DNA from: an uncultured Pirellulaceae bacterium
GTDB taxonomy: Bacteria; Planctomycetota; Planctomycetia; Pirellulales; Pirellulaceae
Length of the DNA: 64,000 nucleotides
Direction: 5' to 3'
NCBI GenBank assembly: GCA_937929805.1
Contig: CALFUT010000008.1
Coordinates: 124,001 to 188,000, forward strand
Shown: positions 33,901-45,400 of the stretch, in pieces
Layout of the letters: every line of letters starts with the position of its first letter
How positions within the stretch are numbered: the stretch's first letter is position 1
Notes under the pieces: generated by a model
Told to the model about the DNA's origin: nothing
What the model saw: the letters and a program-made list of their open reading frames with translations, nothing else
The model's database searches: none
Translations under genes and position numbers: made by a program

Positions 33901-34506
33901 GATTCAACAGACCCGGCCAACCAAACCGCCGAGGCGTTGATCGACTCGTTAAATAGGCATCTGCCTTCCGACTTGCATGAGCCCTTAGCGAAGTCGGTCA
34001 CCAGCTATGCACATTGGTGGCAAAGCGAATTCTCGGTTGCTCATGATCCGTCCCAGTTGCATGGTCAGACCAACCATTTTCAGTATCGACCTCAGCCGCA
34101 GCACGTGCTGCGGTTTGGGCAGGCCGATCAATTGAAGCCCGAAGATCTGTTGCCGGTTGCCCGAGTGATCGCCGCCTGTCAGCTGACGAACTGTCCGTTG
34201 TTTATCAGCGTTGACGTTCCGCACAAGAAAATCGAAACCATGCTGACCGAAGTCAGTTGGGCGATCTCGGCGGAGGTTCGGGTCGAGTCCACCGAGGCGT
34301 TCGTCGAGTGGCTAAAGACTCTGGATCATGGCACGCTTCGGATCGTGGGCGAGTACCAAACAGACCAATTCTCCCCGTCGGCGATCGGAAACATCTTCAT
34401 CGTGTCGCCGCGAGTGTTATCCAACGGCCGCATCGAACTGATGAACTACCTGCGCGAACAATCCATCAGCGAAACGGTGCATCGATATGGAAATATCACG
34501 AAGTAG
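30955..34506 (+). CDS. putA: Bifunctional proline dehydrogenase / P5C dehydrogenase
   Basis: Oxidises proline to glutamate in two channelled steps. The N-terminal PRODH barrel has YVSVKLSAIASQ, RIKVRLVKGANLAMEK and VGVASHN; the ALDH domain begins near 530 with WNFPFAIPVGGVLAALAAGN, ETSGKNAMII and the nucleophile Cys in GHAGQKCSATSLALVE, then QPFGGWKDSSVGPG. About 200 further residues at the C-terminus lack clear motifs but probably correspond to the extra domain of long PutA proteins. There is no N-terminal ribbon-helix-helix, so it should not act as its own repressor. It appears monocistronic. Confidence 0.95.
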   Translation: MPSEPFDLTDRQITDDAIRLAGQLLESSRSFETSDERSRTAMMARMMRDANGKQFTMALADQVLRIPDPKRAAARLRSLVGQFGLPKYLPWLDRLAIRAGNAAASLFPKWVMPMVTDRIRTNSQHVIVSAKPAVVDAYLQSRKASGIRVNYHPLGEAVLGEAEAARRLQQTLDRLQQPGIDYVSVKLSAIASQISLTGYQQTLEILCDRLRKIYRTAIKFPTANGSPKFVNLDMEEYKDLALTVDAFRLVLDQPEFETLEAGMVLQAYLPDSFEVQQSLTQWAIERHARSGGRIKVRLVKGANLAMEKVDASLHGWPQTPYDIKVQSDANFKRMLVYATRPEHASVVRVGVASHNLFDIALALLLRQRRGVEEHVEFEMLEGMANAQALEVRKRSGGMVMYSPIVADDEFEAAVAYLVRRLDENTDEGSFLGAMFSLQEGSEEWNRQAAAFSAAMELAQSDQLSNRPRRIQNRLTETPVRRNADDRFENESDTDFSLAANRQWASEILDHWREKTIEDVPLCLAGNIESRDQTAAACDPSRPGVVAYRFAQATGDDVENALATAVQAQAAWESRGFDERGKILRQVAATIAQRRGDLIGAMVLDAGKAIAEADVEISEAIDFANYYARGCPNGSQDGLTSDPMGVVVVTPPWNFPFAIPVGGVLAALAAGNAVILKPASETVLTAWMAANCLWDAGIPKEALQFLPMEDGPVGQQLISDARTAAVILTGSTQTAQLFQSWRPDLKLYAETSGKNAMIITATADVDLAIKDLVAGAFGHAGQKCSATSLALVEASVYDSSKFRQQLLDAAGSLKVGSAWDPSAKVTPVIREPDPNLRRGLTQLDKGESWLLEPKMVDDNRCLWSPGIRLGVQPGSWYHTNECFGPVLGLIRVSNLDEAIEIQNSSRFGLTGGIHSLDPDEIERWREEVEVGNAYINRGTTGAIVQRQPFGGWKDSSVGPGVKAGGPNYVAAFREWTDDESAALDSTDPANQTAEALIDSLNRHLPSDLHEPLAKSVTSYAHWWQSEFSVAHDPSQLHGQTNHFQYRPQPQHVLRFGQADQLKPEDLLPVARVIAACQLTNCPLFISVDVPHKKIETMLTEVSWAISAEVRVESTEAFVEWLKTLDHGTLRIVGEYQTDQFSPSAIGNIFIVSPRVLSNGRIELMNYLREQSISETVHRYGNITK

Positions 34507-34693
34507 CGAGGCAGCAGGCAACATCAGAAAGTAGATGCACGGACTCAACCGATCCGTAGCTGCGTCGTCTCGCCGCAGTAGTCGAGGAATTCGAAATCCA
34601 GTCGACAGGCGCTCGTCGGGGTATGCTCTCTTCAATAGCAACTTTTTGGGCTCCATTTGTTAGGGCGGGACGACCCAACCACGACGTGATACC

Positions 34694-35065
34694 CTACTTC
34701 AGGTACGAGTTCAACAACTCAATCGTTTTGGGCGTGTTCAATGCCGACTTGCCGAAGCCTTGAACGGCGCCTGCGGCGACGGCAGCGTCTTGAGCGTCCG
34801 CGTAATTCGAAACGATCATCACCGGAATATCCGCGGTGGTTTCATTGGCTTTGAGTGCCTTGAGCGTTTCCATGCCTTCGCTGCCGTTGGCATCGTACAG
34901 TCGGTTGATCAAGATCAATGCGGGTTGCGAATCCTTTGCCATCGTCAGGGCTTGGTCATGTGAATGAGCCTTCTGGACTTCCACATCAAAGTGTTGCTTC
35001 AGCATGCTGGTGATGTTCGAGTTGTCCAAGGCACACTGCCCCACATCAAGTACTGTTTTGCTCAT
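34694..35065 (-). CDS. Degenerate response-regulator receiver protein
   Basis: Single receiver-like domain, 123 residues. The fold pattern is clear ([41 protein letters not shown]), but the phosphoacceptor Asp is Asn54 and the paired acidic residues after strand 1 are Gly9-Gln10. Ser86 and Lys106 are kept. It therefore cannot be phosphorylated in the normal way and is probably a pseudo-receiver that works by protein contacts. Its ATG overlaps the stop of the upstream DNA methyltransferase by four bases, so the two are translated together. Confidence 0.85.
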
Positions 35066-36144
35066 GGTTGTTTCGTCTCCGTAAGTTGGGGTTCGCTGCC
35101 GTTGGCGTCAGCTTGTTTTGAATCATTGGCGAAAACGTTTTTTCGTCCGCGGTCTGCGGTTTTCGTTTTTACCGTCATCTTTGGCTTCGCTCTCGATTTC
35201 ACTTTCGCTTTTGCCTTAGGCACTTTCTTCACTGAGGCAGGTTGAGTTGGTTTGCCGCCTTTGGTGGGTTCGGGGGAACCATCGAGTGAATCACCCACCT
35301 CGATCGCGTCAAGTCGCTTTCGTCCATGTTCGACGTACTCTTTGGACAAGTCAAAACCGATTTGCTGCCGGCCCAGTTTCTTGGCGACCGCCAGCGTGGT
35401 GGCGCTACCGGAGAACGGGTCGAGCACCAATTCGCCCTCGTGTGAGCACGTGCGGATGATGCGACCGAGTAATTGCTCGGGCATTTGACAGCCGTGGAAA
35501 CCGGCTCGTTCTTTAAAGGTGCCTGCCACCCGTGGGATGTACCAAGTGTCTTCGGAGTCGTTGAAGCTGTCGGGTAAATCTTGCGGTCGCAAAACGAAGG
35601 TCTTGGCGACGTCCTGATCGGCAGGTGGAATGATCCACGTATCATCCGGCAGCCGCCCCTTGGGATTGGCTCGTTTGTCGTTGTAGACTAATTCACGGGC
35701 AGAAGGGATTCGATTCTCTAGATCGTCGCTGCGGAACGTGAAGTTGTCCTTGTCCTTCACAAAGTAAAACAGATGAGCGTGTGATCGTGTGAATTTGTTC
35801 TTGCAGTTCACGCCAAAGGTGTAGTACCAGATGACCCAACTGCGGCAGTGGAAGCCAACTTTCTGGCTTTCAATTTTAAGCTCGGCCGCGTACTCGTCCC
35901 CGATCGCCAGCCAAAACGAGCCGTCTGGTTTCAACACTCGGTGAACGCCTTGGATCCACTGGCTGCACCAATCGATGTACTGTTGGTGATCGACTTTGTC
36001 GTCATACACATCGTAATCGTAGCCAATGTTGAACGGCGGATCGGCAAAGGCAAGATCGACCGAACCCTCATCCAGTTTCTGCATGCCCTTGATGCAGTCA
36101 CTGTTGAGAATCTTGGATGTCCAGTTTTTCGCTGAAGTCGCCAT
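35062..36144 (-). CDS. Orphan DNA methyltransferase (DPPF type, beta class)
   Basis: SAM-dependent amino-methyltransferase acting on DNA (N6-adenine or N4-cytosine). Catalytic motif [18 protein letters not shown], begins the protein (Asp35) and SAM-binding motif [16 protein letters not shown], lies near residue 245, the beta-class order seen in CcrM-like and restriction methylases. Between them a target-recognition-like insert (~100-215). Residues ~290-345 are a Lys/Ala/Pro-rich basic tail. No restriction gene is adjacent. DPPF alone does not settle adenine versus cytosine. It is co-translated with a pseudo-receiver. Confidence 0.92.
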
Positions 36145-36328
36145 GGCCGTTCCGTTATCGGTAGATGAAGCAGGAGGATTCTACCAATTGCACTCACAGG
36201 GCGCAAGTTTGGGCATCAAGATTCGCACTATTTGTAATGGTTTTCTTGGCCGATGAGCGATGGTTGCTATACTTGTCGCATCGAGAACGTGACTCGAAAG
36301 ATTGATACAACGAACAAGGGTTTCGGCC

Positions 36329-36541
36329 ATGGAGCGATTTTCTGACATTGTGGACGCCGTTAATGAGCTTCCACCCGACGACCAACTTACACTCGCTCAG
36401 ATTCTCAAACAGCGGCTCGCGGCAAGGGAGCGAAGCGAGATTGTCAAAGAAGTAGCTGATGCTCGAGACAAGTATCAAACCAACGGGTTGAATTCACAGT
36501 CGGCCAGTTCGATTATGGATGAAGCTCGGGATGACTCGTGA
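36329..36541 (+). CDS. Antitoxin-like small protein, 70 aa
   Basis: Acidic, helical, 70 residues from ATG 36329 (MERFSDIVDAVNELPPDDQ), with a LAQILKQRLAARERSEIVKEV core. It overlaps by 11 bases the start of a broken RelE/YafQ-like toxin gene, the usual order antitoxin-toxin. The frame also opens upstream at 36302, but the ATG at 36329 is the better start. Assignment as antitoxin rests on the neighbour more than on its own sequence. Confidence 0.7.
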   Translation: MERFSDIVDAVNELPPDDQLTLAQILKQRLAARERSEIVKEVADARDKYQTNGLNSQSASSIMDEARDDS

Positions 36542-36810
36542 GTTGATCCCAACGACCTCGTTCAAGGGGCACGCTTCGAAAGTTTGTGCGTCGGAATCCG
36601 CGGTGCGCCGATAGTATCGAGCAGACGCCTGGCGACCTTGCCGCTGATGCCTTCGCACCGAAGCTGAGAACTCACAAACTGAAAGGTGACCTAGACGGTG
36701 TCTGGGCATGCAGTGCAGGCGCTTAGATGTCAGGGTTCATCGTGTCAAGCTAGGCAAGCGTGGAGGCGATTACTCGGTAGGCAACACCGCGGTTAGCTGT
36801 TCGACACACA
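36531..36810 (+). pseudogene. Frameshifted RelE/YafQ-like toxin
   Basis: From ATG 36531 the frame reads MTRELIPTTSFKG, then a frameshift near 36567 leads to LRKFVRRNPRCADSIEQT and DLAADAFAPKLRTHKLKGDL followed by DGVWACSAG. A stop and a second shift near 36722 lead to DVRV and VKLGKRGGDY. This is the order of the RelE/ParE/YafQ toxin fold (FxxxxKFVRRxP, PKLRTHKLKGDLxGxWACSAG, DxRVxF). The gene is too broken for an active mRNA interferase. Its antitoxin remains intact. Confidence 0.85.
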
Positions 36811-36875
36811 ATCGACAACGCGGTTGCAAAGAAGTGGTTGAGTATTGGAACCAAGAGTGAATTCAGGTACATAGG

Positions 36876-36904
36876 CTGACCAATCTCAAAATCTAAGCTA
36901 CAAA
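36876..36904 (+). promoter_or_regulatory. Possible promoter of the kinase-ATPase operon
   Basis: CTGACC (36876), 17 bases, TACAAA (36899-36904), only 15 bases before the ATG at 36919, so a transcript would be nearly leaderless. The ATG has no good Shine-Dalgarno. Weak match, by eye. Confidence 0.25.
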
Positions 36905-36918
36905 AATAGAGACGCCGA

Positions 36919-39393
36919 ATGCGTACAAACCTTCCAGATTACCAGTACTTTCTTGGTAAATCTGTACCTACTCAGCTTGATATTGAAATCGTATCTCACG
37001 TCGCCAGCGGCAATGACGGTCACGTATTCAAAGGTTTTTCGAGCTCTTTGCAAAAAGACGTAGCTTGTAAAGTTATCCCGCGATCCAATCTTATTCATGG
37101 GCCGGCGGGTGAGCCGCGTTGGCAAGCGGAAGTTCATAAGGCCGACGCTTTGCGCAACCCCGCTGTTGTTAAATTCGAGCGCATACTTGAATGGAACGCC
37201 GAGGATTGTCCCTGCATTTTACTTGTCTCAGAGTTTGTTCAAGGGCCGAGTCTAAAGACATTCGTCAAGGAGTCTGGCGATGAAGTCAGCATGCCTTTTG
37301 TTGTGAATTTCCTCGCAACGATTCTCAATCTTTTCTATGAGATGAAAGAAAAGAAAGTGAATCATGGTGATCTGCATCTAGGGAATATCTTGGTAGAAGA
37401 CCGGTCGGATTTTGATCTCTTGGGGCCAAAGTATGTCTTTCGGGTGACTGATTTTGGTGTGGCGGATGCATCAAGCGAGCAGCGATTTCGTGATGATTAT
37501 CATCAGCTTGCAGATGTCGTTAACGGCCTTTTGCGTCTAATAAAGTACACAGAACTGGCCCCAAAAGACAAATTTGCGTTTAAGGTGATTCGCGATGAAT
37601 TTGTCGGACGGTCATTGGTCGAGCATGACTTAACTCGGGACGCTCATGCTCGCCAACCAGATCAATTACTATTAAGATTGCAGGGTTTAGGGCGAGAGTT
37701 CGAGAAAACAATTGCTTCTGACGAAGACGCCCTTAGCACCCCATTTGACTTCTTAAGCTGTGAACAAATCGACACTCCAGCAATTCTTGAAACGCTCTAT
37801 TCCGAGCGTTTCCTCGGCCTAAAAGAAATTGCAAGTCGAAATAATACGGTTGTAACTGGCCCACGTGGATGTGGAAAAAGCACGGTTTTCAAGGCGCTGA
37901 GTCTCGAGCACAAAATTAAGGTTGGAAAATCTGAACCCTCCGACTTAGAGTACATCGGTATCTACTATCGATGCGATGATTTGTATTTCGCTTTCCCTCG
38001 ATTCGCTTCGCCCGATCGAGAAGACGCTATCAACGTACCCGTTCATTTCGTAACGAGTACCTTGATCTCGCGACTTTTGGATTCTTTGGATGCTTGGGCA
38101 AACTTGTTTTTCGCAGACGATTTTGCGGAGATTGAGCCAAAGATCAGCGAACAGATTTGGAGAATCTTGCGGATAAATTCTCCTCAAACCCCAAATGCAA
38201 ATAGCTTTGCGAGTATATCAAGCAAACTTCACAAAGAGCGAATTAGGGCGGCAGAAAGACACCGTTTTGTTCACGACAAAAAGCGAAAAATTGGTTACTG
38301 CTTTGGCCCTGACGTAATTCAATCTGTCTGCTCAGCTCTCCAGCAATATTCTTTCTTGCGTGAGCGGCCAATTTACTTTTTCATTGATGACTACTCGTCG
38401 CCGAAGGTGTCAGAGGCTCTACAGGCAAACTTGAATCGTGTTTTCATGCATCGGTCGTCCGCTTGTTTCTACAAAATTTCCACTGAGAGTTCCGTTTCCT
38501 TTCTTCCAAAAGATATTGACGGAAAAACATATGTTGAAAACCGAGAATTTTCATTGCACAACTTAGGCTTGGCGTTTCTGCATGCAGATCTCACAGCCAA
38601 GAATCAGTTCATCGAAGACGTCCTGCAGCGTAGACTAAATGCCTCGCCAAACTTTCCGATAAAGGATCTGCACCATCTCATTGGTGTCGCCGAGTCTGTT
38701 TCAAACAATGAGCTTGCAAAACAGATTCGCGAGCACAAATCTGTAGTTGCCTGGGGCCGAAATTCGATTGCCGAGCTTTGCAGCGGTGACATCCACTACG
38801 TTATCGGTTTGGTTGCGGAAATGGTTAGGCTCGCTGGAGGGGCCAACGAGTTAGACGTTGCGAACTCGCCGGCTATCACACCGAAGACACAAAACAGAGC
38901 GATCCGAGACTGGGCAGGAGGTTTTCTAAAAAACTTGAGCGGAATCCCCAAAGTTGGCGAAAAGTTGGTTGCAGTCGTTCAGGCGTTTGGGAACATCGCG
39001 CACTCTCACCTCAGGTTCATCGATTCTAAAAATGAGGAAAGCTTGCCACCCAAGCAGGCGACGCGAATCGAACCATACGAAGCGTTAAAGTTGAACGCGG
39101 AAGCACGCCATATTTATGACGAACTTCTTCGCTATTCGGTTTTCCTAGAAGACTTTAGAGGAAAAAGCAGGCGAGGATTAATCGTGCCGCGGTTGTATCT
39201 CCGTAGATTCTTGATACCTCACTTCAATTTAACGTATAGCAAACGTGATTCAATTGAATTAGAACCACAAGAATTCGAATTGTTTTTGCTGAATCCGTTG
39301 GCGTTGGAGAAAGCCAAGAGTGTCCAAAAGAAGTCAGATGAAACCAAGGATCGTCAACCGTTCCTCGAATTTGACAGTGAGGAAGAGCAATGA
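36919..39393 (+). CDS. Protein kinase fused to a P-loop ATPase, 824 aa
   Basis: Two modules. Residues ~20-240 are a protein-kinase-like domain: glycine-loop region VASGNDGHVFKG, Lys51 in VACKV, catalytic loop HGDLHLGNIL (Asp151, Asn156) and DFG in VTDFGVAD (Asp178). Residues ~280-620 hold an ATPase: Walker A GPRGCGKST (Gly314-Thr322, Lys320) and Walker B IYFFIDDYSS (Asp490-Asp491), like AAA/ORC-CDC6 or STAND-type NTPases. The C-terminal ~200 residues are unassigned and end acidic. ATGA overlap couples it to the next gene. Base composition is lower in GC than its neighbours. Function unknown; a defence role is my inference. Confidence 0.85.
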   Translation: MRTNLPDYQYFLGKSVPTQLDIEIVSHVASGNDGHVFKGFSSSLQKDVACKVIPRSNLIHGPAGEPRWQAEVHKADALRNPAVVKFERILEWNAEDCPCILLVSEFVQGPSLKTFVKESGDEVSMPFVVNFLATILNLFYEMKEKKVNHGDLHLGNILVEDRSDFDLLGPKYVFRVTDFGVADASSEQRFRDDYHQLADVVNGLLRLIKYTELAPKDKFAFKVIRDEFVGRSLVEHDLTRDAHARQPDQLLLRLQGLGREFEKTIASDEDALSTPFDFLSCEQIDTPAILETLYSERFLGLKEIASRNNTVVTGPRGCGKSTVFKALSLEHKIKVGKSEPSDLEYIGIYYRCDDLYFAFPRFASPDREDAINVPVHFVTSTLISRLLDSLDAWANLFFADDFAEIEPKISEQIWRILRINSPQTPNANSFASISSKLHKERIRAAERHRFVHDKKRKIGYCFGPDVIQSVCSALQQYSFLRERPIYFFIDDYSSPKVSEALQANLNRVFMHRSSACFYKISTESSVSFLPKDIDGKTYVENREFSLHNLGLAFLHADLTAKNQFIEDVLQRRLNASPNFPIKDLHHLIGVAESVSNNELAKQIREHKSVVAWGRNSIAELCSGDIHYVIGLVAEMVRLAGGANELDVANSPAITPKTQNRAIRDWAGGFLKNLSGIPKVGEKLVAVVQAFGNIAHSHLRFIDSKNEESLPPKQATRIEPYEALKLNAEARHIYDELLRYSVFLEDFRGKSRRGLIVPRLYLRRFLIPHFNLTYSKRDSIELEPQEFELFLLNPLALEKAKSVQKKSDETKDRQPFLEFDSEEEQ

Positions 39394-40433
39394 ATGATTT
39401 CATCCTTACTCCGAGCGAATCTTTGGATTCAATTTCAAAACCTAAGCTCTTGCGATTTGCGGAAGTATCCTCCATAGGCTGTACAGCATTGTTGCTTGCG
39501 GCAGGTTTTGAGGAGCGGAGTCTGGGGGTTTTGAAAGCACTGGCGAAACGAGATGAAAAGTTCGCAGTCTTCATGGTTCGATACTTACCGCTAGTCCCAG
39601 AAAATCGTGCTGAAGAGATTGTCAGTTTTTGTAACGAAAATCGCATAGATGTTATTGAGCTTGAGTACGACCGGAGAGATCCAAGAAATTTTGGTGAAAT
39701 ACTGTTAGAAGCAGTCCCAAAGGATGCTCGGATACTTGTTGACGTATCTACGATGTCGAGGCTACTTATCGTTCAGGTTGTCGTGGCACTAGCGAATTCA
39801 GATTTTTCGAGAGACTTTACGATTGGCTATTGCGAGGCCGAGAGCTATTCCCCATCAAGAGAAAAAGCCGATGCCATTCTTGACGACGTAGGTAAAAGCC
39901 CTTCAAGCGGAATGACTTTCCTTTCTTCAGGAGTATTGCAAGTTGCAATTGTCCCAGAACTTTCGTCTGCGACTTACGGCAGCCAGCAAACTAGATTGAT
40001 TGTGTTCCCGTCGTTTGATTCGCACCATTTTATTGCCGTTCGCTCAGAAATTCTTCCGTCTCGTTTTTCGTTTATTGAAGGAATTCCACCGGAAACCACT
40101 AATCTCTGGAGAACAGCAACGATTCGAAAGATCAATGAACTTGAAAAATTCCCAGTATCCGATTGCTTCGCCGTTTCAACTTTAGATTATCGCGAGACAT
40201 TGGATTTGCTGCTAGAAATTTACCACGACCACTCTCTTCGCGAGAGAATAATAATCTCCCCAACGGGTAGCAAAATGCAGACGGTTGCGGTTGGAGTATT
40301 CAAAGCCTATCTCGATGATGTGCAAATCGTTTATCCTGTGGCAAAAAACTTTACCAGTCCGGAGAGTTACTCAAGCGGCATTGGAGAGAAGCACCTTTTG
40401 AATGTAAATCAATTTTTCAAAAGAGAATGTTGA
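39390..40433 (+). CDS. Unknown protein with two Rossmann-like halves, 347 aa
   Basis: I do not recognise the family. The N-terminal half has alternating strands and helices with TALLLAAGFEERSLGVLKAL (FEERS at 40-44) and ARILVDVSTMSRLLIVQVVV (Asp118). The C-terminal half has IIISPTGSKMQTVAVGVFKA (residues 287-306), followed by DDVQIVYPV. A (T/P)xG(T/S)K-M loop after a hydrophobic strand is typical of CARF-type nucleotide-binding Rossmann domains, so a CARF-like sensor is possible but unproven. No membrane segment. Its ATG overlaps the stop of the kinase-ATPase gene; both share the AT-richer composition and probably form one operon. Confidence 0.8.
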   Translation: MNDFILTPSESLDSISKPKLLRFAEVSSIGCTALLLAAGFEERSLGVLKALAKRDEKFAVFMVRYLPLVPENRAEEIVSFCNENRIDVIELEYDRRDPRNFGEILLEAVPKDARILVDVSTMSRLLIVQVVVALANSDFSRDFTIGYCEAESYSPSREKADAILDDVGKSPSSGMTFLSSGVLQVAIVPELSSATYGSQQTRLIVFPSFDSHHFIAVRSEILPSRFSFIEGIPPETTNLWRTATIRKINELEKFPVSDCFAVSTLDYRETLDLLLEIYHDHSLRERIIISPTGSKMQTVAVGVFKAYLDDVQIVYPVAKNFTSPESYSSGIGEKHLLNVNQFFKREC

Positions 40434-40548
40434 GTTTCACTCTCAAGGCGCTAATCGCGTACGAATTACGAAGATGTTGTTCGTGGCTTTCTTCGTGTCC
40501 TTCGCGCTCTTCGTGGTTCAATCTTGCATCCTTGTCTGTATGAAGACC

Positions 40549-42156
40549 TCACTCGTCGATTCGTTCCCGAATCACCTGCTCGACTTCGTCGATTTTGACG
40601 CGGACTTGCTCTAGGCTGTCGCGGTCGCGGAGGGTGACTGTTTTGTCCGTGAGTGATTCGCCATCGACGGTGATGCAGTACGGTGTGCCGGCCTCGTCTT
40701 GCCGACGGTAGCGGCGACCGACCGCGCCTTTTTCGTCATAGAAGACGTTGAAGTGCTTTTTCAGGTCTAGGTAAATGTCTTTTGCGACTTCAGGCATGCC
40801 GTCTTTCTTGACCAACGGGAACACGGCGGCCTTGATCGGAGCAAGCCGCGGGTGAAGCTTCATCACCGTCCGCGTTTGCATCTTGCCTTTGTCGTCCGGC
40901 GCCGAATCCTCGGTGTAGGCTTCGCACAAGAACGCCAGCGTCGCGCGGTCGGCGCCCGCGGAGGGCTCGATCACATGCGGCGTGTACTTTTCGTTGGTCA
41001 GGTCGTCACGGTAGGAAAGGTCTTTGCCGCTGCCCTTCCACTTGGGTTTGCCGTCTTCGCCCAGTTGCAGAGTCAGCGGATCGGTTTTCTCGTCCAGCTT
41101 GCCTTCCATGTGGCTGCGGAGGTCGAAGTCGCCACGATGAGCGACGCCTTCTAGTTCACCGAATTCACCTTCGGCCATGAACGGGAACGCGTACTCAATG
41201 TCGGCGGTGCCGATGCTGTAGTGAGCCAGTTCTTCCTTGTGATGCTCTCGCATGATCAGGCGATCGCCACTGATGCCCATGTCGTGATACCACTGCAGAC
41301 GACGGTCACGCCAATAGCGATACCATTCTTGTGACTTGTCCGGGTGGCAGAAGAACTCGATTTCCATCTGCTCGAATTCGCGGCTACGAAACGTGAAGTT
41401 GCGTGGCGTGATCTCGTTGCGAAAGCTTTTTCCGATTTGAGCGATACCCATCGGCAAGCGGTTGCGGGTGCTGTCGAGGACGTTCTTGAAGTTGACGAAA
41501 ATGCCTTGAGCGGTCTCCGGGCGCAGGAAGGCGGCTCCTTCTTCACCCGACAAGGCACCGACGTAAGTTTTGAACATCAAGTTGAACTCACGCGGTTCGG
41601 TTAGCGTGCCGAGCGTTTTCGCATCGGGGCCCAGAACTTCAGCGAAGGAATCGATCTCGGTTAGGCACGTGGAAGCGCCGTCCCATTGGATATCGTCTTT
41701 GTTTTTGGCTCGGATTTTGAAAAACTTCATGGCCTGCTTTTCCATCACGGCCTGTTCTTCATCGCCCGCGGGTGCCGTGACGAAAATCTTCTGACCTTTG
41801 GCCTCGACCCAGCGGCCGTTCAGTTGGTCGTGGCGATAACGCTTTTTGGTTTCGCGGCAGTCGACCATGAAGTCATGGAACAGGTCGTAGTGACCGCTGC
41901 ATTTCCAGACCTGAGGGTGCATGATGATGGTGCAATCGAGCCCCTCCATCGCGTAGGACGAAGGCGCGCCCGGAAGCGTACTGATGTCGTCGTGGCCGCT
42001 GACCATGTCCTGCCACCACGCGTTTTTCACGTTGCGTTTTAGTTCAACGCCCAAGGGACCGTAGTCCCAGAACCCTTGGAGACCGCCATAGATTTCGCTG
42101 GATTGAAAAAGAAATCCGCGTCGCTTGCACAACGAAACGATTGAGTCCATGTCCAT
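40549..42156 (-). CDS. glyS: Glycyl-tRNA synthetase (single-chain, eukaryote/archaea type)
   Basis: Class II aminoacyl-tRNA synthetase charging tRNA-Gly. Residues 1-80 carry SLCKRRGFLFQSSEIYGG and WDYGPLGVELKRNVK; motif 2 region is FRNEITPRNFTFRSREFEQMEIEFF, and motif 3 is near VIEPSAGADRATLAFL. This is the dimeric alpha2 form, not the alpha2beta2 GlyQ/GlyS form. The length of 535 is normal. The anticodon-binding domain is at the C-terminus (PRLAPIKAAVFPLVKKDG). Confidence 0.95.
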   Translation of the reverse strand: MDMDSIVSLCKRRGFLFQSSEIYGGLQGFWDYGPLGVELKRNVKNAWWQDMVSGHDDISTLPGAPSSYAMEGLDCTIIMHPQVWKCSGHYDLFHDFMVDCRETKKRYRHDQLNGRWVEAKGQKIFVTAPAGDEEQAVMEKQAMKFFKIRAKNKDDIQWDGASTCLTEIDSFAEVLGPDAKTLGTLTEPREFNLMFKTYVGALSGEEGAAFLRPETAQGIFVNFKNVLDSTRNRLPMGIAQIGKSFRNEITPRNFTFRSREFEQMEIEFFCHPDKSQEWYRYWRDRRLQWYHDMGISGDRLIMREHHKEELAHYSIGTADIEYAFPFMAEGEFGELEGVAHRGDFDLRSHMEGKLDEKTDPLTLQLGEDGKPKWKGSGKDLSYRDDLTNEKYTPHVIEPSAGADRATLAFLCEAYTEDSAPDDKGKMQTRTVMKLHPRLAPIKAAVFPLVKKDGMPEVAKDIYLDLKKHFNVFYDEKGAVGRRYRRQDEAGTPYCITVDGESLTDKTVTLRDRDSLEQVRVKIDEVEQVIRERIDE

Positions 42157-42421
42157 GGGGAAATGCCGGGAAATTGAGTGGATCTAGAAATGTAAAAGGC
42201 ACAATTTTAGTCGGGAGGACAAGTTTGTGCTATGCGAACGGGATTGGAAATGGAGGCCAGAAATCAGAGCTGAGAATTAGAAAACCTCGAATCTGGCGAA
42301 TCAAACGAATCGCGGCCGCAGTATTTGTAAGATTCGCTTGATTGGTGGACGCGTCGTTTTGATTTGAAGTTGCGCAACGAGCGCTACGAAAAAATGCTTC
42401 CCATTGTGGGTTATCAAGAAT
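42157..42421. other. Spacer between glyS and the alpha-2-macroglobulin gene
   Basis: About 265 bases that should hold the glyS promoter (minus strand). I see no gene. It contains an imperfect palindrome around 42297-42345 (cgaatcaaacgaatcg ... cgattcgcttgattgg type) that could form a stem. Confidence 0.35.
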
Positions 42422-45400
42422 TTACTGCACCTCAATCGTCACGCTATTGCTGTGGCTGTTAAATTCAGGGGCATACATGCACTGCAGAGTCGCGATGCCG
42501 GATTGGTACTGGCCACGATGTTGGACCCGCACGCTGTACTCGAACACGTACGTTCCGCGGCGAAGATAATCGATGAAGAAGTGGCTGGCGGTATCGCGAG
42601 TCGATTCGTAGTACCACAGACCGTCTTGGTTTTTGTACCGCGAGAGCACATTGACCGGTTCGGTGCCGCTGCCGCGTTGGTCCTTCAAGTGGACGTATTC
42701 CATGTCGCGATCGACCCGAAGTTCGACGCGAGTCACCACTTCATCACCGACCTCCACCGGGCCCGTGATCGGATTGATCGTTGGGCCGTCCTTGGTGTTC
42801 TTCTTAATGAACAGCGCCTTTTTCAGTTGCAGCGGCGTGCCCTCGTAGGATTTGATCTTTGACGCGTCTTCTAGGTACTGCCAATGGACACTGCCCCACG
42901 CGACACCGTCGTCCGACTTTTTGACCTCGATCGTTTTCATCTTGGAAGTCACTTCGCTGCCGGCGAACTTTTGTGAATAGAAACCTGTGCCGGCTTCGAC
43001 GTTCTTGGGTTCGATTTTTGTGCCGCCCAGTGAGACCTCAACCAGTTTGTCGGACGCTAAAGCATCGGTGCCTCGCAGCAGCAACGCGTAGACAGCGTCG
43101 GCGGTCGCTTTGGTGGTTTTCCAGTTTTGGGTTTGCTTTTGCTTCAGCAACCAAACCTTACAGTCCTCGACCTTCGTCGCGTCGCCCGCCACTTCGTCAT
43201 AGGCTTCGATGATCAATGCTTGAGTTTCAATCGGAGCCCGGTACCACCACCAGCGTTCTTCGTTTTCGGTCCAGAACCGACCTAGTTCTTCATCGTTTTG
43301 CGAGCGTTCGGTGAGTGATGCCATGATCTTGGCTGGCGTTTCCGCATCACCTTGTTTGAACGTCGTAAAGCGCTTGGTGGCGATGGCCAGATGAGCCTGA
43401 GACATTTTGCCGACCGAGAGCCAATGTGCGTTGGCTTGGCCAAGGAAGTAGTCCACCGCCGGGCGATGCTGATCGGCAATGCCTTGGTCTTTCAGGAAAA
43501 AGCTACGGCCATAAAGGTACAGACAGATCGTCGAGGACAAATTATTTTGCTCGAGCTGGTTTTTTTGTTTGAGCCGTTGATAGGTTGAGCTAATCCACCC
43601 GTCGAGTCGCGAAAGCGATTTGATCGCAGGATTCGCGTCGACCTCCACATTCAAGTGCCGCAGTCGGCCAAATCCGGTGGTGATGTACAGTGTGATAAAG
43701 TCGTTGGCCGGTCCACCGGGGAACCAAGACCACGATCCGTCGGAGTACTGGCTTTCTTTCAGTTGATGGGTGGCTCGACGCAGTTCGTTCTCCAATCGGT
43801 TTTGGTCGAACAGGACCGCCACGTCGCGACGAGCTTGGCTCTCTTCTTTACCGGCTCGCAGCCATGGCGTTTCGGCGATCAAGACGTTGCGAAGGTCTTC
43901 GTTTTTCTCCAGCGGACTATCGAGCGCCTCGGTGCCGCGCCATTGATCGAAGACGCGTTTGATTTTCGGTTGGCTAGTGACGATGTGCCGACCGAGCGCG
44001 TTGGCGTACAGCCGGTTGAAAACCTGTTCGTTACACTGATGCGGGTACTCCATCAAGTACGGCAACGCCATGACGGCGTACCACGACGGATTGGAGGTCA
44101 TCTGCACGGTTAGCGATTGGCTTTGCAGGCTGTCGCTGCTGTCGATCAAATCCAGACGGTCGAAATCAAAAATTTTCGTTTGGTTGCCACGAATCGGCAG
44201 CGGCAAAGATTCGGTCACCAAAATCCGTTTGCTCAAAACGGGCAGCAGTCCTTCTTCGCCGTCGGAGAGTGTTTCGGTTGCGGCGACGGCTTTCCACGTT
44301 AGCACACCCACGTAATCTGGCACGTTCAGTTTCCAGAAAATGCTTTTCGATTGGCCCGCGGGCACGGTAAACGTTTGTTCGATATTTTGGTTCGCGAACT
44401 TGGCGTCCAAGGTTTCTTCGGTCGTCGCGTCGGCCAGCGTCAGCCGCACCTTGCCGGTTTGCTCGGCCTCGCTGAGGTTGGTGATCTTGGCGGAAAATTC
44501 CAGCTGGTCACCTTCTCGTAAGAACCGCGGCGGGTTGGGCTGAACCATCAAGTCCTTGCTGGTGGTGATTTCGTCGGTCAGCATGGCCGTGCGAAGCTGG
44601 GCGTCGTGAGCCAGTCCAAGGAATTTCCACTTCGTCAGTGCTTCGGGGATTTCGAATTCAATGCGAACGGTTCCATTTTCATCGGACACCAATTGAGGGA
44701 AGAAGAACGCAGTCTCTTGCAGGTTGGTGCGAGCAGAAACTTGATCCAGCTGAATGTTGGCGGCGGCTCCCGATTTGTCCCCTACCGATTGCTGTTTCAC
44801 AAGCTCCCAAGACTCATTTGCCTCAAATGCTGAGTCTGCAACAACGGCAGAGCCGGCCATCGGTTTTGCACGGCCCTTTGCCATGCCAAGGTCCATCGCA
44901 AAGCTTTCGGTGTAGGGAACGCTGACGGCGTAGTTTTGCATCACTCCTCCAACCGTTCTCGATCTTGACTCACGTCGCGGCATTCGGACGCCTCTTCCAG
45001 CACCACCACCGCCGCTGAAATCCCAGAAGTAATCGCCTCTTCCATAATAATTCTGAATAAGCACAACGTGAGATGCAAAGGTTCGGTAAGACCAGTCGAC
45101 CGGTTTTCGAGTCAGCGAATAGCTGTGATTGAAGTTACTTAAGTACTGAGTCTGATTGTGCGTTCGCACCGATGTGCGAGCATAGTCTCGATAGAACAAG
45201 CCACGGATTGAATTTGACCAATTGTGCGGAGCGAACGCATCCAGCGAGGCGTCGTACATGCCGGCAACCATCTCGGCGACCGCTGTTTCGGCGTCGGGGC
45301 CCGTGATCACGGCGGTCCATGTTTCACGCCCGCCGGGTGTTATCTTGGAAACAAAATGCTCCCACTTGATCGTCAGGTTCTTGTTCGACCAAGGAACTTC

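Follow-up and report, generated by a model that had tools for sequence, protein, structure and literature searches.

A horizontally acquired kinase-ATPase and tandem CARF gene pair in an uncultured Pirellulaceae bacterium as a candidate anti-phage signalling module

What does a protein kinase do when it is joined in one chain to an ATPase and followed at once by a gene for a CARF-like partner? Such a gene pair lies in a stretch of 64,000 nucleotides from an uncultured Pirellulaceae bacterium (contig CALFUT010000008.1, positions 124,001 to 188,000; "the window" below is this whole stretch), where a first-pass annotation had proposed it as an undescribed, horizontally acquired defence or stress module. 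We find that the pair is foreign to this genome, that its two genes are conserved together, and that its complete relatives carry a DNA methyltransferase gene upstream. With moderate confidence we read it as a horizontally acquired anti-phage (abortive) signalling module. The two genes and their main features, in window coordinates, are as follows:

36919-39393, + strand: kinase-ATPase fusion, 824 amino acids (aa) (Pkinase at 5.3e-13; PF24389 at 6.4e-44; PADLOC PDLC01925 at 2.6e-26; AlphaFold pLDDT 86.0, pTM 0.66)
36982-37698, + strand: kinase domain, about residues 22-260, with a predicted kinase fold; K51, E71, D151, N156 and D178 are invariant in 17/17 aligned rows
37858-37881, + strand: Walker A motif GPRGCGKS with an arginine within the P-loop (R316, K320); G314, R316, G317, C318, G319 and K320 are invariant in 17/17 rows
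38386-38391, + strand: Walker B aspartates D490-D491, invariant in 17/17 rows
39390-40433, + strand: tandem CARF protein by predicted fold, 347 aa (AlphaFold pLDDT 91.1, pTM 0.92; CARF rows in VIA-align; PADLOC CARF6 at 1.7e-24)
39741-39761, + strand: first CARF signature, DVSTMSR, residues 118-124, starting at the end of the strand of residues 115-118; D118, S120, M122 and S123 are invariant in 19/19 rows
40257-40280, + strand: loop of the second half, SPTGSKMQ, residues 290-297; P291, G293, S294, K295 and Q297 are invariant in 19/19 rows

Both frames lie exactly where the first-pass annotation had placed them, overlap through ATGA, and contain every motif it had cited (HGDLHLGNIL, DFG, GPRGCGKST, IYFFIDDYSS, FEERS, DVSTMSR and SPTGSKM). 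The first protein is the fusion that had been proposed: beside the Pkinase match, it matches PF24389, the ORC-CDC6-like ATPase family, with 151.1 bits against a cut-off of 27 and thus passes the Pfam threshold. In the predicted structure the kinase part folds closest to DYRK1A, PknB and DAPK, with Z of about 19. The motif HGDLHxGN hints at a kinase of the aminoglycoside-phosphotransferase type, an assignment that we rejected because Pfam and the fold favour a protein kinase, which could still act on a small molecule. Neither a nuclease nor a PglZ-type effector appears among the pair's Pfam, NCBIfam and PADLOC matches (for the first protein, the best 25 of 33 PADLOC matches).

The second protein matched no Pfam or NCBIfam family in profile scans, and a PDB sequence search with it returned nothing better than E 0.57. 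Its AlphaFold model, built from 19 rows (the pLDDT listed is the mean), comprises two Rossmann halves. Foldseek's own ranking was mixed and its scores low: a cation-chloride cotransporter domain led, CARF proteins began at rank 9, and no TM-score taken over the query length exceeded 0.29. When VIA-align was applied to re-align Foldseek's 1000 highest-ranked chains, the first 22 rows were all CARF proteins, with Z from 9.6 to 15.3 (Can1, Card1, Csm6, Can2, Csa3, Cam1, a ring nuclease and Cad1), and the next row had Z 7.9; the best row was Can1 (6sce; Z 15.3), with 234 aligned residues spanning both halves and an rmsd of 3.7. Furthermore, DVSTMSR, from D118 to R124, fits the CARF signature [DN]X[ST]XXX[RK] that is printed as following strand 4 in PMC4012209. 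Since Foldseek alone was low and mixed, it is the VIA re-alignment, the PADLOC matches and this motif that identify the second protein, at the level of its modelled fold, as a tandem CARF, in agreement with the CARF-like label it had been given.

The first-pass annotation had staked its reading on the conservation of the two genes as a pair, and the pairing is conserved. A scan of species genomes returned 17 relatives from 67 pattern matches, and one of viral contigs 2 relatives from 80. Of the resulting 19 loci, L009-L027, 17 have the CARF gene immediately behind the ATPase gene. The other two are L014, where the ATPase gene is absent and the CARF gene is cut, and L016, whose contig begins at the CARF gene. 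The kinase motif HGD(L/F)HxxN is present in 16 of the 17, the exception being L011, where the kinase and P-loop part is missing. Distances among the ATPase and CARF proteins are correlated at r 0.96 over 17 rows, a value reached in 0 of 2000 permutations. A viral scan with a single protein gave 8 pattern matches and no relatives, and phage records gave no match. In the relatives the system is split over two or three genes; in L006, on a plasmid of Bradyrhizobium, the kinase has a gene of its own.

That the two proteins belong to one system is also indicated by the PADLOC model CARF6--CARF_STK_AAA (PDLC01925), which matches both of them, so that the earlier statement that no named system is known with this exact pair is not supported as it stands. 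In the alignment to this model, residues 302-708 of the window's ATPase fall on positions 329-723 and its CARF protein on 876-1186, and for L009 residues 78-336, mostly kinase, fall on 100-361. Because the order of the genes is the order of the domains in the fused model, the kinase-ATPase and CARF parts very likely act together. The window pair itself has not decayed: neither frame is shortened, and 85/87 and 35/35 of the columns that are invariant among the other rows are kept. A decayed copy is seen elsewhere, at L005 1621-3285 (G315), with a split ATPase gene and a CARF frame that continues antisense to a transposase-like gene.

How did the pair come to lie here? Comparison with G352, a same-genus genome, delimits the insertion and its flanks:

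36717-40561, no strand: inserted foreign segment (blastn against G352 contig C157; homology ends at 36716 and resumes at 40562)
36302-36541, + strand: small gene in the antitoxin position (flank, outside the module); same place in G352; no Pfam family over cut-off
36531-36716, + strand: remains of a YafQ-like toxin gene, 3' part lost (flank); full-length copy in G352 (L052 3859-4140)
35062-36144, - strand: resident N6_N4 DNA methyltransferase (flank, native); PF01555 at 1.6e-52; match in 38/40 related genomes, own included

By blastn, 3845 base pairs (bp) in the window stand opposite 235 bp in G352, which keeps the same neighbours together without the pair; the homology resumes beside a gene that we named glyS by eye and whose product is 95% identical in the two genomes. 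The G+C content of the pair is 45.2%, and all 535 sliding windows of 3515 bp that lie clear of the pair are higher (minimum 51.2%); the low G+C first noticed from hand counts of 24/60 and 37/60, both exact, thus holds over the whole pair. A maximum-likelihood tree of the kinase-ATPase places the window in a starred five-row clade with Verrucomicrobiota, Myxococcota and Aminicenantes, and the planctomycete rows L020 and L022 lie away from it. Its closest row, Verrucomicrobiota L010, is 56% identical, and the fork that joins the window to L009 and L010 is unstarred. We rejected the idea of a housekeeping unit, as the CARF gene occurs in just 3/343 genomes of the phylum, own included. The pair is therefore foreign and horizontally acquired, as had been proposed from its G+C content, and it is probably a mobile module. 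Plasmid and integrase contexts are found among the relatives (an integrase lies beside L022), and two relatives sit on contigs catalogued as viral.

The window contains no tRNA genes, the insert has no further frame of more than 140 aa beyond the two genes, and Rfam at gathering scores found nothing in 34000-43000. At the right edge of the insert, 40468-40518 resembles sequence elsewhere in an intergenic region of G352 and is perhaps an interspersed repeat. A toxin-antitoxin relic had been noted just upstream of the pair, and G352 accounts for it: the full-length toxin there matches PF15738 with 31.2 bits against a cut-off of 30 and sits behind the same small upstream gene, which is called a putative antitoxin from its position. 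Since the homology of the window breaks at 36716, inside the toxin gene, the relic is a by-product of the insertion.

What usually accompanies the pair in its relatives, which come from several phyla, is a DNA methyltransferase. Upstream of the kinase-ATPase gene they carry a frame 370-452 aa long that contains DPFxGxG-type and TSPPYM motifs; the five of these genes scanned with Pfam (L006, L009, L010, L020 and L027) all match DNA methyltransferase families, and 14 of the sequences have 79 invariant columns in common. Such a methyltransferase is found upstream in 16/16 loci, the window not counted, that have complete kinase, ATPase and CARF frames together with upstream sequence (L006, L009, L010, L012, L013, L015, L017-L021 and L023-L027), a count made with a profile built from these same sequences and over loci that are not independent (L015, L017, L018 and L019 are close, as are L006/L023, L021/L026 and L024/L027). 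L014 carries it as well. Loci outside the count are L016 and L022 (on the same contig as L004), which are cut off by the contig end, L005, which is cut and broken, and L007, whose upstream side lies across the record start; the misses are the window and L011, which is already incomplete and has another frame upstream. The distances of the methyltransferase correlate less strongly with those of the two proteins of the pair (0.63 and 0.67 over 13 rows; 0/2000 permutations each).

The window copy departs from this arrangement. A search of its own genome, run without a positive control in that search, gave no match to the relatives' methyltransferase, and a profile of this methyltransferase matches 12/392 genomes of the phylum at 1e-15, its own not among them. 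Nor does 36145-41000 hold a credible methyltransferase remnant, a single chance-level match (E 0.049) falling inside the kinase. The resident methyltransferase at 35062-36144 was considered as the missing partner and rejected, being a core gene whose match to the profile built for the relatives' gene is no better than 6.4e-07 and which is present where the pair is absent; it may serve as a stand-in.

Two further arrangements of the methyltransferase are worth recording. In L021 (3771-7293) two genes, one of GmrSD_N type and one of 211 aa, separate the methyltransferase from a methyltransferase fragment adjoining the kinase, as if a cassette had been inserted with partial duplication. The same methyltransferase family also turns up on a contig that is catalogued as viral (L090 5968-8860). 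Two genes similar by eye to the L021 cassette come after it there, and no kinase-ATPase or CARF protein is found among the frames of at least 200 aa in that stretch.

Is the kinase itself a fixed part of the system? The ATPase family suggests that it is not. PF24389 occurs in 12/392 genomes of the phylum: two kinase-type (own and G160), the broken copy of G315, and nine others. In the kinase's place, L093, L094 and L096 have PRTase-CE; L097 has HD-CE, as does L008 on an Agrobacterium plasmid; and L101 (Metallophos) and L095 (only via the associated family wHTH-Calcineurin_assc) have a gene of phosphoesterase type. The remaining loci of the nine show nothing recognised (L098), are decayed (L099) or are cut by the contig end (L100). 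A CARF-type partner is recognised by profile in 7/9 sister loci, L093 and L101 being the two where it is not. The accompanying methyltransferases are of several classes: N6 in L093, N6/Eco57I in L094, D12 in L095, N6_N4 in L096 and L098, C5 in L097 and cytosine in L008; at L101 the neighbours include type I specificity and restriction genes. The PRTase-CE of L093 also matches the PADLOC PRTase_III-A models (3.9e-17), which we take to represent the effector of retron type III-A. From the effector and methyltransferase classes across these loci, we conclude that the core is constant and its two companions vary.

Individual sister loci also show the following. The C5 cytosine methyltransferase frame of L097 (2973-4769) is 598 aa long, includes an HhH-GPD domain and belongs to one run of genes with CARF, ATPase, HD-CE and thyX. 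Behind the Agrobacterium copy in L008 (13928-21268) come vsr, another cytosine methyltransferase and a gene of the SIR2 family; together they look like a defence cluster, and the plasmid that bears them is typed as conjugative. By eye, thymidylate synthase (thyX, or two thyA frames) adjoins or lies near six loci, the HD-CE version included, as follows:

Thymidylate synthase genes: L006 13145-14068; L008 12820-13758; L023 10741-11664; L097 2044-2976; L014 10771-12338; L025 6066-7463

These neighbours may mark an insertion site, be phage cargo or reflect a functional nucleotide link.

On these grounds we propose how the module might work. The constant core, an ORC/CDC6-like ATPase with a tandem CARF, would act as sensor and switch. 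The two CARF halves are predicted to bind a nucleotide-type ligand in the cleft of a pseudo-dimer, much as in Can1, which also has two CARFs. The ATPase would be a switch driven by nucleotide and perhaps acting on DNA, and the kinase fused to it would be the exchangeable effector which, once switched on, would phosphorylate targets and halt growth. The relatives' operonic methyltransferase would belong to the module, and its linkage suggests that DNA modification (self/non-self marking) or restriction failure may be part of the trigger in most copies. The window copy would then be a derivative without the operonic methyltransferase.

The surroundings of the relatives are consistent with a role in defence. 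Type I restriction-modification (R-M) genes lie beside L012, L014, L094, L097 and L101, and other defence-type neighbours are BrxL at L020, a 1197-aa N6_N4 methyltransferase at L010 and an Mrr-type nuclease in L006. Enrichment in defence islands, a check that the first-pass annotation had itself proposed, was assessed by a matched PADLOC comparison of 86/102 flank genes (without the viral loci and a few frames at the ends) with 86/150 genes from second contigs of the same genomes (up to six per contig). The flank set has type I R-M, type III methyltransferase, PglZ, BrxL and PD-Lambda-4 among the best 25 of its 98 families.

Several observations weigh against the anti-phage reading. The control set has type I R-M, MADS and SoFic among the best 25 of its 80 families, so the flanks are suggestive of a defence island and an enrichment over the matched control is not established; the defence part of the earlier proposal stays plausible. 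The absence of the methyltransferase from the window means either that this copy does not need it or that this copy does not work, and the L090 stretch implies that the methyltransferase has other partners too. The own genome is without a match to two markers of ligand synthases, PF22335 and SMODS. Finally, control of transcription or of repair would suit a CARF protein and an ATPase just as well.

The cyclic oligoadenylates made by Cas10 are the molecules that CARF domains are chiefly known to read. The pair could be an ancillary effector of type III CRISPR, in which the tandem CARF binds such a molecule and unleashes the kinase; its nearest structures (Can1, Card1, Csm6, Csa3, Cam1 and Cad1) fit this idea, as do the 5/18 host genomes that match PF22335, here taken as a Cas10 marker. 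Thirteen of the 18 hosts, own included, show no match to that marker, a count to be read with the incompleteness of the drafts (the own draft is 95.64% complete) and with a marker that also matches the E. coli control; moreover, no cas family was seen among the neighbours scanned with Pfam, which are part of all neighbours, and we regard this explanation as improbable. A slim chance likewise attaches to a stress-signalling or regulatory kinase unrelated to phages. The kinase domain does fold like ordinary protein kinases such as PknB; set against this are the patchy distribution (3/343), the plasmid and integrase contexts, the two relatives catalogued as viral and the matches to models of a defence library.

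Two other explanations are, in our view, each unlikely. The module might guard R-M, watching the methyltransferase, a restriction complex or nucleotide pools and firing when a phage disables them, so that it would sense host enzymes and not unmodified DNA; such a guard would act in the manner of PrrC. The type I R-M flanks and the BrxL described above point this way, together with the methyltransferases of unrelated classes beside one core and the thymidylate synthase genes adjoining six loci by eye. The insert in the window, however, has no R-M gene or partner methyltransferase, and an enrichment of defence genes over the control contigs is not established. With a similarly low probability, the pair in this genome is an orphan remnant, left without its methyltransferase and inactive in defence. 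The gene missing here occurs in all 16 relatives that have complete frames and sequence upstream of them, and L014 and L005 show that such loci decay; against a remnant stand the two full-length frames and their nearly complete set of invariant columns. The anti-phage signalling module is our preferred reading.

A wider generalisation is offered tentatively, as more doubtful than probable: these loci may form a CRISPR-independent class of defence in which a constant ATPase-CARF core couples an interchangeable methyltransferase to an interchangeable effector (kinase, HD phosphohydrolase, phosphoribosyltransferase or phosphoesterase), with a nucleotide sensor reading the state of DNA modification or restriction. 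If so, the window copy would show that the core can work without a methyltransferase of its own. Effectors exchanged around a common core would amount to a plug-in design, open to direct comparison part by part. Should the linkage be functional, two questions become open to test, namely which signals CARF proteins read outside CRISPR and which targets defence kinases phosphorylate, given a tandem CARF tied to a kinase-ATPase, and in relatives to a methyltransferase, where 13/18 hosts show no match to the Cas10 marker.

How far is this system already known? The first-pass annotation had called it undescribed and had named a clear match to a described system as one finding that would overturn its reading; such a match exists in part. 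A single-chain family with a kinase, an AAA+ ATPase with an arginine in its P-loop, and a CARF, in that order, is in print (Makarova et al. 2014, PMC4012209), and from its name and layout the PADLOC PDLC01925 family would be the same one. The window pair has the same three parts in the same order, P-loop arginine included (R316). Unlike that family, it consists of two genes, as its relatives consist of two or three; it has no zinc ribbon, the 21 residues ahead of the kinase being free of cysteine, and it lacks a winged helix, its CARF model ending with the second Rossmann half. Because these single-chain, zinc-ribbon and winged-helix features are lacking, we regard the window pair as a split variant and not as a member of the family. 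The operonic methyltransferase of the relatives goes unmentioned in the passage of PMC4012209 that describes that family. For the linkage to a methyltransferase and the swap of effectors we found no description in the literature consulted, which weakly suggests that they are absent from print, and to that extent the claim of an undescribed system stands.

Other known systems share single aspects of the pair. Can1 (6sce) also has two CARF domains, as is stated for its homologs in PMC11090510; in contrast to Can1 and other CARF effectors, no nuclease domain was found in the window protein, and the putative effector is the separate kinase-ATPase chain. MADS with MAD6 reportedly combines kinase, ATPase and methyltransferase in one defence locus, and the window kinase falls below the cut-off of the MAD6 NCBIfam equivalog (18.5 bits against 460). 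BREX type 2 with PglW (PMC12839542) likewise combines these three in one defence locus; the window insert, having no other long frame, has no further BREX core gene, and no cognate methyltransferase stands in the operon. A comparable plan has been argued for CoCoNuTs, CARF-bearing loci proposed to back up DNA restriction and to end in dormancy (PMC11090510). Also close to the window pair are the loci with HD-CE, PRTase-CE or phosphoesterase-type genes (PF24389, PF24390, PF24391), which share its ATPase family, in most cases a CARF-type partner, and a neighbouring methyltransferase or type I R-M system, and which differ from it in having an effector other than a kinase and methyltransferases of other classes.

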